DNA from: Skermanella rosea
GTDB lineage: Bacteria > Pseudomonadota > Alphaproteobacteria > Azospirillales > Azospirillaceae
Assembly: GCF_016806835.2 (NCBI RefSeq)
Contig: NZ_CP086111.1
Span: 1,809,001-1,873,000 of the forward strand
Direction of reading: 5' to 3'
Length of the DNA stretch: 64,000 nt
Below, in pieces: positions 34,621-39,329 of this stretch. The stretch's first letter is position 1. Each line of letters begins with the position of its first letter. The translations under genes were made by a program, and so were the position numbers. The notes below the pieces were generated by a model. The model had not been told where the DNA came from and ran no database searches. It worked only from the letters and a program-made list of their open reading frames with translations.

Positions 34621-35403
34621 TTAGACGGCGGGAACGATCAGCGGCCGATCCAGGTCGGCCCGCCGAGACACCAGCACGGGATGGTCGAAGGCGGCGGTCA
34701 GGCATTCCGGCGTCATGACGGTCCAGGGGGTGCCGGCCGTCAGGACGCGGCCGTCGCGCATCAGGACGACGGTGTCGGCATGGACGGCGGCGAGGTTGGG
34801 GTCGTGCAGCACCGCCATGACCGCCCAGCCCCGGCGGGCCAAGCCATGGGCCAGCCCGAGAAGCTGGGCCTGGTGGCGGATGTCCAGGCTGGAAGTCGGC
34901 TCGTCCAGGATCAGGTAGCGGGGGGAAGGGTCGGCGCCGTCGTCCAGCTGGGCCAGCACGCGGGCGAACTGGACCCGCTGTTGCTCGCCGCCGGACAGGG
35001 ACGGGTAGGAGCGCTTGGCGAGGTGCAGCGCGTCGGCCGCGAGCAAGGCCCTCTCGACCGCCTTCAGGCTTTCGGTCCGGGTCGAGCGGGTCCGGTGCGG
35101 CGCCCGGCCCAGCATCGTCACCTCGCCCACGCCGAGCGGGAAGGACAGGGTGACCGACTGGGACAGCACGGCCCGGCGGCGCGCCAGCACTTCCGGCTCC
35201 CACTCCGCCAGCGGGCGGCCGTCGAGCGTGACGGTGCCGGCGTCGGGCGCGGTCTCGCCCGACAGCAGGCGGACCAGGGACGACTTGCCGGCGCCGTTCG
35301 GCCCGAGCACCGCCGTCAGCGTGCCCGGTTGCAGGTCCAGCGAGACCCGGTCCACCAGCGTCTGGCCGCGGCGCCTGAGCGTCGCGTCGGTCGCCCGGAT
35401 CAT
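34621..35403 (-). CDS. hmuV: Haemin ABC transporter ATP-binding protein
   Basis: A 260-residue ATPase powering haem import across the inner membrane. Walker A is VLGPNGAGKSSLVRLL, the signature YPSLSGGEQQRVQFARVLAQ, and Walker B YLILDEPTSSLDIRHQ, followed by the H-loop VLHDPNLAA. All of these are as expected for HmuV. Its ATG lies in the stop of hmuU (ATGA, 35400-35403). It is the last gene of the haem operon. Confidence 0.94.
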   Translation of the reverse strand: MIRATDATLRRRGQTLVDRVSLDLQPGTLTAVLGPNGAGKSSLVRLLSGETAPDAGTVTLDGRPLAEWEPEVLARRRAVLSQSVTLSFPLGVGEVTMLGRAPHRTRSTRTESLKAVERALLAADALHLAKRSYPSLSGGEQQRVQFARVLAQLDDGADPSPRYLILDEPTSSLDIRHQAQLLGLAHGLARRGWAVMAVLHDPNLAAVHADTVVLMRDGRVLTAGTPWTVMTPECLTAAFDHPVLVSRRADLDRPLIVPAV

Positions 35404-36449
35404 GACAGGGTCTCCCGCCGCCGGCGGATCAGCAGCCAGAGGAAAAAGGGGCCGCCGAGCAATGCCGTGACCAGGCCGATCGGCAACTCGGCCGGCGCCA
35501 CGACGGTGCGCGCGACGATGTCGGCGAGCAGGACCAGGGTGCCGCCGAGCAGGGCCGAGGCCGGCAGCAGCAGCCGGTGCCCGGCCCCGGCGACCAAGCG
35601 GACCAGATGCGGCACGACCAGCCCGACGAAGCCGATCACCCCCGCGACCGCCACGCTGGCGCCGACCGCGGCGGCGCAGACGATCACGATCCCGGTCTTG
35701 GCCGGCTCGACCCGGAAGCCCATCAGCGCCGCCTCGCGCTCGCCCAGCAGCAGCGCGTCCAGCACGCCGGCCCAGCGCCCGGCGGCCAGGACGGCGCCCA
35801 GGGCGAACGGCGCCAGGGCGAGCACCACCGGCCAGGCGGCCCCGCCCAGGGAGCCCATGGTCCAGAAGGTGATGTCGCGCATCTGCCGGTCGTCGCTGCC
35901 GAAGACCAGGTAGCCGGTCCCCGCCGAGGCGATGGCGTTGACCGCGATGCCGGCCAGCAGCAGGGTCGCCACGTCCGTCCTGCCGTCGCCGCGCGCGACC
36001 CGCTGGACCGCCAGGATGGTGAGGAGGCTGCCGGCGAAGGCCGCGGCCGGCAGGGCGAAGGGGCCGGCCAGCCCGGCGACCGCGGCGGGAACGCCCAGCA
36101 CGATCACCGCGACCGCCGCCAGGGCGGCGCCGCCGGAGATTCCGATCAGGGCCGGATCGGCGAGAGGGTTGCGGAACAGCCCCTGCATCATGGCGCCGCT
36201 GACCGCCAGCGCCGCCCCGACGCCGAACCCCAGCAGCATGCGCGGCAGCCGGAGCTGGAGCACGATCGCGGCGTCGCGGGGAGCGATGTCGCCCCCGGCG
36301 AGCGCCGCGATTACGGTCCCGGGCGGGATGGCGGAGGCGCCGATGGCCAGGCTCGCCACCACGGCGGCGCAGGCCAGCGCCGCCAGTAGCGCGAGAAAGC
36401 CCCAATGGCCGAGCGCGGCGGCGCCGTCGCGCGCCGTCAGGCAGGTCAC
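35400..36449 (-). CDS. hmuU: Haemin ABC transporter permease
   Basis: A 349-residue FecCD-type permease with about ten membrane helices. Family features include LQLRLPRMLLGFGVGAALAV, SGAMMQGLFRNPLADPALIG and VIGFVGLVVPHLVRLVAGAG. It pairs with HmuV and receives haem from HmuT. Overlaps of ATGA with both neighbours (hmuT at 36446-36449, hmuV at 35400-35403) show one translational unit. Confidence 0.94.
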   Translation of the reverse strand: MTCLTARDGAAALGHWGFLALLAALACAAVVASLAIGASAIPPGTVIAALAGGDIAPRDAAIVLQLRLPRMLLGFGVGAALAVSGAMMQGLFRNPLADPALIGISGGAALAAVAVIVLGVPAAVAGLAGPFALPAAAFAGSLLTILAVQRVARGDGRTDVATLLLAGIAVNAIASAGTGYLVFGSDDRQMRDITFWTMGSLGGAAWPVVLALAPFALGAVLAAGRWAGVLDALLLGEREAALMGFRVEPAKTGIVIVCAAAVGASVAVAGVIGFVGLVVPHLVRLVAGAGHRLLLPASALLGGTLVLLADIVARTVVAPAELPIGLVTALLGGPFFLWLLIRRRRETLS

Positions 36450-37324
36450 GAGCGGCCCCTGGGCGGCTTCGGGAAGGCGTCGGTCCGGTCCGGGTGCAGC
36501 GCGCGGGCGAGGTCGGCCAGGGCGTGGGGCAGGCGGGGGCCGAAACCCAGCAGGTAGAGGGTGTCCATTGCGACCAGCCGGCCGTGCCGCGCCGCCGGGG
36601 TCCCGGCGAACTGGGGCATCGCCAGGATCGCGTCGCGCCCGCCGGCGGCCTCCACCGCGTCGGACGGCAGCAGCAGCACGTCGGGAGCCGCCGCCAGGAT
36701 CGCTTCGCCCGACGCCGGCTTGTAGCCCTCGTATCCCTCCATGGCGTTGATTCCTCCCGCCAGCCGGATCATGGCGTCGGCGGCGGTGTTCTGCCCGGCC
36801 GCGGTCGGGGCGCCCCGGCCCAGCCCCATCAGGAACAGCACGCGCGGGCGGTCCGGGATGGTATCGACGACAGCGCTGACCGCCTCCACTCCCTCGGTGA
36901 TGTCACGGGCCACGGCTTCAGCCTCCTCCTGCCGGTCCAGGAACGATCCGACCGCGCGGACCTTCTCCGCGACGCCCTCCACGGTCGGCCGGTCGGGGAC
37001 CATCCGGGTGGGAATGCCCAGGCTTCGGATCTGGGCGATCACCGGGGGCGGGCCGGCATTGTCGCTCAGCAGCACCAAGTCGGGGTGGAGCGCCGCGACA
37101 CCCTCGGCGGACAGCGCCCGCATGTAGCCGATCTGCGGCAGCTCCCGCATGGCGGGCGGATGGAGGCTGGTGCTGTCGACCGCGACCAGGGTGTCGCCCA
37201 GGCCCAGTTCGTTGACGATCTCGGTTACGGCGCCGCCGACCGAGACGATCCGCGCGGGCGGGTCGGCCGCGGCGGCGATCGACGCCAGCACCAGGGAGAA
37301 CAGGACCGGCGGCCATGTCCTCAT
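36446..37324 (-). CDS. hmuT: Periplasmic haemin-binding protein
   Basis: A 292-residue binding protein with a cleavable signal peptide (MRTWPPVLFSLVLASIAAAA). The mature part begins PPARIVSVGGAVTEIVNELG and includes VAVDSTSLHPPAMRELPQIG, with a typical HmuT Tyr region GYMRALSAEGVAALHPDLVL. It hands haem to HmuU/V. The start at 37324 overlaps the hmuS stop; the longer frame upstream is shadow. Confidence 0.92.
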   Translation of the reverse strand: MRTWPPVLFSLVLASIAAAADPPARIVSVGGAVTEIVNELGLGDTLVAVDSTSLHPPAMRELPQIGYMRALSAEGVAALHPDLVLLSDNAGPPPVIAQIRSLGIPTRMVPDRPTVEGVAEKVRAVGSFLDRQEEAEAVARDITEGVEAVSAVVDTIPDRPRVLFLMGLGRGAPTAAGQNTAADAMIRLAGGINAMEGYEGYKPASGEAILAAAPDVLLLPSDAVEAAGGRDAILAMPQFAGTPAARHGRLVAMDTLYLLGFGPRLPHALADLARALHPDRTDAFPKPPRGRS

Positions 37325-38421
37325 GGCGCCGCCTCCGGCCCGGCGAGGCCGGCGGCCAGCACGCGCCAGCCGTCCAGCTCGGGTTCGGAGGGCTTGCGGC
37401 GGCCGAACACGAAGGCGATGGTCTCCCCCGCGGCGTCGAACAGCTCCAGCGAGGTGACGATGCCGTCGGCCGTGGGCTTGCGCACCACCCAGGCGGTTGC
37501 GATGCGGTCTTCCCGGAGATGCAGGTTGAAGCCGGGGTCCAGCACGTTCAGCCACGGCCCCATCGCCTTGATCCGGCGGACCGGCCCGGTATGGATTCCG
37601 ATGCAGCCCCGGTTGCCGACGAACACCATGATCGGCAGCCCGCTGCCGGCCGCGGAGTGCAGCACGGTCGAGAGCGCCGACGCCGCGACCGGGCGCGCCC
37701 GGTCCGGTCCCGCCAGCCGCAGCGCCTGGACGCGGCCCAGCCCGAAGCGGCGCAGCAGGCCGAAGAATTCATGGGTGTCCTCCAGCGCGTCCCAGCCGGC
37801 ATGGAAGCCTGCCAGGCCGACCCGCTCGTCCTCGGTCGGCGCGGCGGGTTCCCCCGGCGGCTCGGCGTCGAAGGCGGTGCTCTGGTCGTCGGTCTTCCGG
37901 GCGGCCACCAGCCGGTCGAACGCCGCGCGGTCGCTGTTCTCGGTCAGGTAGATCTTGTGGACCGCGTTTCCGGCGCCGTCGAAGACCTGGAGGCTGAGGC
38001 GGGCGGTGCCGTGGCTGTCCTCCCGGACCATGAACAGGTGGCGCCAGTGGTTGAAGAACAGGCGCAGGTCGATGTCCGGGTCCAGCACCAGCCCCATGGC
38101 CGGCCCGCACTCGATGTCGCGGTAGGTGCCCGTCTTCTCGATCACCGCATGCTCGTTGCGGGTCAGCGCCATGACCGGGCCGAGCGTGCCGACCCCTTCC
38201 AGGAAGGTGCCCCAGTCGCCGGGGCGCAGGCGCAGGCTGATCCGGCCGCAGCCGCTGGCGATCAGCGCCGCTTCCGGAACCTCCAGTTCGAGCGCCGCGT
38301 CGCGGGCGCGGATGCCGGGGCGGTCCTTGCGCAGCACCTGCCAGCAGTCCCACAGCAGGTCGTTGGCGGGCAGCGGCATGCCGGGCAGGGTCTTCAGGTC
38401 GGATAGGATGTCGGGACTCAT
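37321..38421 (-). CDS. hmuS: Haemin-degrading / haem-trafficking factor
   Basis: A 366-residue cytoplasmic protein of the HmuS/HemS family, built from two repeats of the same fold. It accepts haem after import and breaks or stores it. Family phrases are TLGPVMALTRNEHAVIEKTG, LFFNHWRHLFMVRED, LSLQVFDGAGNAVHKIYLTE and MVFVGNRGCIGIHTGPVRRI with LNVLDPGFNLHLRED. The gene begins three bases after the receptor remnant's stop and overlaps hmuT, so it remains intact inside the operon. Confidence 0.93.
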   Translation of the reverse strand: MSPDILSDLKTLPGMPLPANDLLWDCWQVLRKDRPGIRARDAALELEVPEAALIASGCGRISLRLRPGDWGTFLEGVGTLGPVMALTRNEHAVIEKTGTYRDIECGPAMGLVLDPDIDLRLFFNHWRHLFMVREDSHGTARLSLQVFDGAGNAVHKIYLTENSDRAAFDRLVAARKTDDQSTAFDAEPPGEPAAPTEDERVGLAGFHAGWDALEDTHEFFGLLRRFGLGRVQALRLAGPDRARPVAASALSTVLHSAAGSGLPIMVFVGNRGCIGIHTGPVRRIKAMGPWLNVLDPGFNLHLREDRIATAWVVRKPTADGIVTSLELFDAAGETIAFVFGRRKPSEPELDGWRVLAAGLAGPEAAP

Positions 38422-38424
38422 GGC

Positions 38425-39258
38425 TCACCACTTCACGATGGCATTGACCGCGACGGTGCGGCCGGGTTGGGCATAGCGTTCGATGCTCGTGGAAGTCCGG
38501 CTCTGGCCGGTGACATCCTGGGGGTTCCAATAGCGCTCGCCGGTCAGCTTGAGCGTGTCGTGGTCGCCCGCGTTCCAGACCCACTTGCCGGCGCGGCCAG
38601 CCAGGGTCGCCGCGGTGGAGAGGCTCCTGTCGGCGCCGTCGTAGGCGGTCTTGGCGCTGGCGAAGACGTCGCGGCCGAATTCCGCCAGGTAATCCGCCGG
38701 ATCCTTGGTGATGTAGGCGACCACGCCGCCGATCGCATCGCTGCCGTCGAGCGACGAGGCCGGGCCGCGCACGATCTCCACCCGACTGACCGTGTGCAGG
38801 TCCACATAGTCGCGGTTGAAGGTCGGGCTGGTCGCGGGGAAGTCCGGCAGCCGCGCGCCGTCCACCTGGACCAGCACCCGGTTCCCGCCGATGCCGCGGA
38901 TGGTGCAGTTGGTCAGGCCCGAACGCGACGGGTCTTTGCCGATCGACACGCCCGGGCCGTAGCGCAGCAGGTCGCGCGGGCTGGAGACCAGCCGCCGGTC
39001 GATCTCCGCGTCGGTGATGACGGAGACGGTGCCGGGCACCTCGTCCACCGGCCGCTCCCCGCAGGTCGCCGTCACGGTGACCGGGTCGAGGCGAAGCACG
39101 GAGGCGGGCGGGTCCGCCGCCGGGTCCGGCGCGGCTTCCTGGGCAAGGGCGCCCACGGCGCCGAGAGCGACGATGCTGGTGGACATCAGGACCGTGCGGC
39201 TGAGACGGGCACCATGACCCGTCGATCCGATGCTAATGAAATTAGGAATCAGTCGCAA
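38425..39258 (-). pseudogene. TonB-dependent haem/haemoglobin receptor with in-frame loss of most of the beta-barrel
   Basis: A 277-residue frame where a full receptor would have roughly 700 or more. The TTG start at 39258 (GGAG nine bases upstream) gives a good signal peptide ending GAVGALA, then a TonB-box-like region and a complete plug (DEVPGTVSVITDAEI, GVSIGKDPSRSGLTNCTIRG, RVEIVRGPASSLDGSDAIGG). After GRAG (residue ~224) the reading jumps to KWVWNAGDHDTLKLTGER, which looks like an early barrel strand. It then jumps again to YWNPQDVTG and the true C-terminus IERYAQPGRTVAVNAIVKW. The barrel is thus missing in frame, probably by two deletions. It cannot form a normal outer-membrane pore; an assembly error is the alternative. 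Confidence 0.8.
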
Positions 39259-39306: not shown

Positions 39307-39329
39307 GATAATGATAATCGCTCGCATTA
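39307..39329 (-). promoter_or_regulatory. Fur-like iron box upstream of the haem operon
   Basis: GATAATGATAATC at 39307-39319 carries two perfect GATAAT hexamers of the Fur consensus; the third is degenerate (GCTCGCATTA). It lies about 50 bases upstream of the receptor's TTG start. The ATG of the longest possible receptor frame falls inside this box, which is why I rejected that start. Iron-replete repression by Fur or a related iron regulator is the expected outcome. Confidence 0.7.

Follow-up and report, generated by a model that had tools for sequence, protein, structure and literature searches.

The hmuR locus of Skermanella rosea

In the desert soil bacterium Skermanella rosea M1T, an open reading frame of haem-receptor type (hmuR) is found in front of hmuS, hmuT, hmuU and hmuV in the window, that is, the whole 64,000-nt stretch of DNA that was analysed (Table 1). 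The hmuR frame can be extended upstream to an ATG at position 39327, which gives a reading of 300 aa. A Pfam scan matched the plug of TonB-dependent receptors as the sole domain of the product, the beta-barrel domain being absent. The preliminary description of this DNA had assigned to the 277-residue frame a signal peptide, a plug and the C-terminal strand of a receptor, and analysis of the open reading frame together with the Pfam scan agrees with this. Compared with the HmuR/HemR families TIGR01785 and TIGR01786, the remnant aligns to the initial 170–174 positions of the models and falls below both curated cut-offs (157 against 323.75 bits and 147.6 against 316.85 bits, respectively), whereas the S. 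mucosa orthologue passes both. Thus, of the characters of a TonB-dependent haem receptor of these families the plug is present, but the full barrel and a score above the cut-off are not.

Table 1. Coordinates of the features of the hmu locus in the window.
Feature	Position	Strand	Description
hmuV	34621–35424	−	ATPase, intact (Pfam); above the cut-off of NF010068, haem ABC transporter ATP-binding protein
hmuU	35400–36449	−	FecCD-type permease, intact (Pfam)
hmuT	36446–37330	−	Periplasmic binding protein, intact (Pfam)
hmuS	37321–38421	−	HemS/ChuX-type, 366 aa, intact (Pfam); 92% to S. mucosa
hmuR remnant	38425–39258	−	277-codon open frame, TTG start; sister orthologues 754–767 codons
Retained hmuR C-terminal end	38425–38552	−	Runs to hmuS via TGA GCC ATG
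Deletion 2 junction	38535–38552	−	1275 bp (425 codons) lost; overlap of imperfect 18-nt direct repeat
Retained island	38535–38589	−	55 nt, early barrel strand; 92.7% to S. mucosa
Deletion 1 junction	38586–38589	−	108 bp (36 codons) lost; shared 4-nt GGCA
Plug domain of TonB-dependent receptor, PF07715	38722–39048	−	Residues 71–179; Pfam E 1.4e-25
Fur-box-like site	39307–39325	−	14/19 to the Fur-box consensus

The 4.5 kb downstream (38552–34001), which include hmuSTUV, align without gaps to the corresponding regions of S. mucosa and S. pratensis, and all four frames are open, as had been supposed from the sequence of S. rosea alone. The spacing of three bases between the hmuR stop codon and the hmuS start codon is the same in S. 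rosea and in two sisters; with this spacing kept, translation could still reach hmuS after in-frame losses, which is what the preliminary description had expected. The Fur-box-like site has counterparts matching 14–15 of 19 positions of the consensus at the sister loci (three species), and only two matches of such a score occur over both strands of the window. Taking into account the conserved stop–start junction and the Fur-box-like site upstream, the hmu operon may still be expressed.

Two deletions relative to intact receptor genes

The locus was compared with those of S. mucosa 8-14-6T, S. pratensis (most likely W17T) and S. stibiiresistens SB22. The nearest relative of S. rosea, according to the available text of the genome paper (PMC11767975), is S. 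cutis TT6T (CP067420), which is not among the genomes identified in the set compared here. At the same place the three species carry intact receptor frames of 767, 754 and 764 codons, respectively. In a pairwise alignment, S. rosea hmuR is collinear with the S. mucosa DNA at ∼94% identity apart from two losses, each divisible by three in length, which remove 461 codons (36 + 425) present in all three sister species. Together the two deletions account for about 60% of the coding sequence, including nearly the whole barrel; when placed on an AlphaFold model of the S. mucosa receptor, the lost residues (about 254–289 and 306–730) correspond to ∼18 of the roughly 22 strands of the barrel. The syntenic alignment therefore bears out the earlier proposal of two in-frame losses taking nearly all of the barrel, the junctions of which had been placed near 38587 and 38533, correctly to within a few bases. 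The repeat at the second junction has a core (38535–38547) of the sequence CTGACCG[G/A]CGAGC, and the two corresponding sites in S. pratensis are identical at 12 of 13 positions.

The seven S. rosea contigs were searched for the deleted DNA with 1,441 bases of sister sequence spanning most of the lost part. Apart from the 55-nt island, only a single weak match of 36 nt was retrieved, which speaks against a translocated or shuffled barrel segment.

Structure prediction for the remnant with an alignment of 20 relatives yielded no confident fold (AlphaFold pLDDT 35). The S. mucosa receptor, modelled with the other 19 relatives, was predicted as a plugged barrel (pLDDT 73.5, pTM 0.76) and may serve as a control of sorts, rather than as proof that the remnant is unfolded. 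The closest solved relative of the S. mucosa receptor is PhuR of Pseudomonas aeruginosa (PDB 8THE), matched over residues 83–764 of 767 with an E-value of 1.6e-130. PhuR consists of a complete plug and barrel, whereas what is left in S. rosea is a plug with fragments of about four strands.

In order-wide searches, the receptor was matched at an E-value of 1e-60 in at least 39 of 82 genomes. The matching frame is at least 723 codons long in 38 of these, two of which contain one TAG within the match, and S. rosea is the sole genome with a short one. Equally short close homologues, which the preliminary description had considered as an alternative to loss, are thus not found among the 38 other receptor-bearing genomes of the order. 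The remaining 43 genomes gave no receptor match at 1e-60 among the best candidates, up to 12 per genome, and one of the five Skermanella genomes (G001) has a match neither to an hmuR-type receptor nor to hmuS. Since the receptor match is missing from these 43 genomes and from one in five within the genus, the haem receptor system seems to be dispensable in this group.

An hmuS match unaccompanied by a receptor match at 1e-60 was observed in four of 23 genomes (G017, G059, G061 and G081). In G059 and G081, a different full-length receptor adjoins hmuS. In G017, hmuS adjoins a Fur-family gene (C30:37000-48000) and the 11 kb inspected lack a frame of receptor length: none of the nine frames listed, two of which were scanned, exceeds 506 aa. 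G017 might possibly hold another haem operon that is without its gate.

Substitutions in the plug and in hmuSTUV

In order to count nonsynonymous and synonymous changes (N/S) on the individual branches we used three-species parsimony, and the counts are therefore independent of rooting. As controls served 30 other genes of the window, open frames picked by a mechanical rule on synteny and low N/S, so that a few may not be real genes. The haem genes were not put through this filter, and the N/S of the controls may for this reason be too low on all branches. Fisher tests were performed on rounded counts, with changes treated as independent.

On the S. rosea branch, N/S amounted to 8.5/8.5 for the plug, 44/64 for hmuSTUV and 195.6/559.4 for the controls. 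The ratio for the plug (1.0) is higher than that for the controls (0.35; p = 0.043), as is that for hmuSTUV (p = 0.002), and the difference is most pronounced for the plug and hmuSTUV combined (52.5/72.5; p = 0.0005). In single-gene tests hmuS (p = 0.008) stands out together with the plug, the values for hmuT, hmuU and hmuV being 0.19, 0.15 and 0.30, respectively; own-branch N/S is as high as 0.69 in two of the 30 controls. No difference between the plug plus hmuSTUV (28/74) and the controls (164.8/386.2) was found on the S. mucosa branch (p = 0.64). On the S. pratensis branch the combined value is also raised (75.2/131.8, p = 0.010), the excess being due to hmuV alone (30.3/30.7). When hmuV is left out, N/S is 0.44 for S. 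pratensis (p = 0.37) and 0.73 for S. rosea (p = 0.0007), and the direct contrast of S. rosea gives p = 0.028 against S. mucosa and p = 0.068 against S. pratensis. From these counts, relaxed selection across the whole hmu operon is likely rather than shown.

The replacements in the plug were then considered by position. Of the 203 columns examined, 46 are at least 95% identical, and four of the nine replacements on the S. rosea branch fall into these, which is no fewer than expected from random placement (P for four or more = 0.12). Three of them, R66C, E101G and K158S, strike columns identical in all 26 relatives, and the fourth, Y171D, a column identical in 25 of 26. On the branches of the sisters S. 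mucosa and S. pratensis, by contrast, none of nine replacements affects such a column; the comparison (4/9 against 0/9, p = 0.08) is suggestive, not decisive. In HmuS, the changes of S. rosea avoid the most conserved columns, and hmuS is therefore not visibly broken.

If the plug were fully unconstrained, its N/S would be 2.1–2.5. Because the value observed in S. rosea is 1.0 and that of the sisters about 0.49, the comparison suggests, very roughly, that the plug has been free of constraint for the final quarter to third of the S. rosea branch. The persistence of an open frame does not show selection for the product: only 1–2% of random substitutions in the remnant yield a stop codon, so that the ∼17 changes predict just 0.2–0.3 stops. 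The chance that two independent deletions are both in frame is one in nine.

Probable inactivation of hmuR and alternative readings

Of the marks of a pseudogene, S. rosea hmuR displays a lesion that disables it in comparison with its intact syntenic orthologues, the lack of any second, intact copy in the genome as assembled and, modestly (by the plug N/S and the column contrast above), relaxed selection on the retained part. It is very probable that hmuR is a recently inactivated haem receptor gene of the PhuR/HmuR type, a loss-of-function remnant in front of an intact, perhaps weakening hmuSTUV. Slippage or template switching at short direct repeats would have produced the deletions, perhaps both at once, and outer-membrane import of haem by the hmuR route would have been lost with the barrel. 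A recent loss that left the frame open, with translation still reaching hmuS, might explain why the hmuSTUV genes are still there, and they would perhaps now be under weaker selection.

The result is based on one genome of the species, and a full-length gene collapsed by the assembler might in principle look the same. Such an artefact is extremely improbable, since the available text of PMC11767975 describes a hybrid assembly of Nanopore and Illumina reads at 917x, in which the replicons are circular, the junction repeats (4 and ∼13–18 nt) are too short to mislead an assembly of this kind, and a collapse would not create replacements at invariant sites of the plug. In addition, the search of the seven contigs for the deleted DNA recovered the island and the weak match alone. 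The preliminary description had proposed that the plug may have acquired a new role, and a short protein selected, for instance, as a periplasmic plug binding TonB or haem would account for the retention of the signal peptide, of the stretch in which a TonB box would be expected and of an open frame in which Pfam still detects the plug. The N/S of the plug does not reach that of full neutrality, and the lack of a stop codon and the two deletions in multiples of three might be taken as signs that a product is selected for. However, replacements on the S. rosea branch have erased residues invariant in 26 relatives, a short homologue does not occur in the other 38 receptor-bearing genomes, and the predicted structure is not confident, although constructs of this kind may be unsuited to AlphaFold. 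A new role is thus unsupported and very unlikely. A particular form of it, in which the secreted barrel-less plug would still engage TonB in the periplasm under iron starvation as a decoy dampening other TonB-dependent uptake, appears hardly probable; if true, the decoy plug would be a receptor turned regulator, early in its evolution.

The same description had raised the possibility that the strain depends on another receptor, and a receptor that took over haem import might have freed hmuR to decay. The nearest candidate is an 808-codon STN-type receptor (C1:2190-2193 kb) with weak matches to the haem-receptor families and HasR. Its scores are 119–168 bits against cut-offs of 317–324, and it adjoins ECF sigma, FecR and IucA/IucC-family genes, which would fit a siderophore. 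Receptors with similar weak matches (806 and 778 codons) also occur in S. mucosa and S. pratensis, respectively, both of which have kept hmuR. No other S. rosea gene exceeds the TIGR01786 cut-off genome-wide, and the six other receptor frames that were scanned, one of them a guessed frame, all fall short of the TIGR01785 and TIGR01786 cut-offs. With no tested candidate above the cut-offs, the dependence on another haem receptor is unsupported, and a takeover is improbable. It is conceivable, if rather unlikely, that the remnant is kept just as a translated leader, frame breaks in which would cut hmuSTUV expression through uncoupling or Rho-dependent polarity, so that deletions in frame would have been tolerated or even favoured. 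Both deletions are in frame, the distance between the hmuR stop and the hmuS start is unchanged from two sisters, hmuSTUV are open and gap-free, and HmuS changes avoid conserved columns. On the other hand, the raised N/S of hmuSTUV on the S. rosea branch fits a fading need better than strong selection, and two in-frame events would arise by chance with the frequency given above. The leader reading is compatible with inactivation of the receptor, not opposed to it, and it is possible that the hmuR frame is kept in order to translate up to hmuS.

A comparable situation is known from Rhizobium leguminosarum, where an fhuA pseudogene lies beside fhuCDB (Stevens et al. 1999 and Yeoman et al. 2000, as cited in the part of PMC3836376 available). 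Both cases, as far as that account goes, concern a soil alphaproteobacterium in which the pseudogene of a TonB-dependent receptor adjoins the genes of its ABC importer; the receptor is of the ferrichrome type in R. leguminosarum and a haem receptor in S. rosea. A limited literature search, mostly at the level of abstracts, returned no matching case of a barrel-less receptor or a haem-receptor pseudogene, and the available text of the S. rosea genome paper (PMC11767975) does not contain heme, hemin, siderophore, iron, TonB or pseudogene as whole words. The hmuR remnant is new as an instance and ordinary as a kind. The probable inactivation of hmuR provides a clean case of a nutrient-uptake operon that is perhaps starting to die, the outer-membrane gate going first: in-frame deletions spare the downstream genes, and the counts hint at a subsequent increase in protein change over the rest of the operon. 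It also means that hmuSTUV by itself is no evidence of the ability of a strain to import haem.

Two further observations concern other parts of the genome and the distal end of the operon. The region C1:2184000-2198000 contains an STN-type TonB receptor, an ECF sigma factor and FecR, followed by an IucA/IucC-family gene, and is, judging from its gene content, a probable cell-surface-signalling siderophore locus. In hmuV, dS between S. rosea and S. mucosa is 0.06, against 0.17–0.19 for hmuS, hmuT and hmuU, and the S. pratensis hmuV has many residues in common with S. stibiiresistens, a pattern that resembles interspecies homologous exchange of hmuV, seemingly between S. rosea and S. mucosa.
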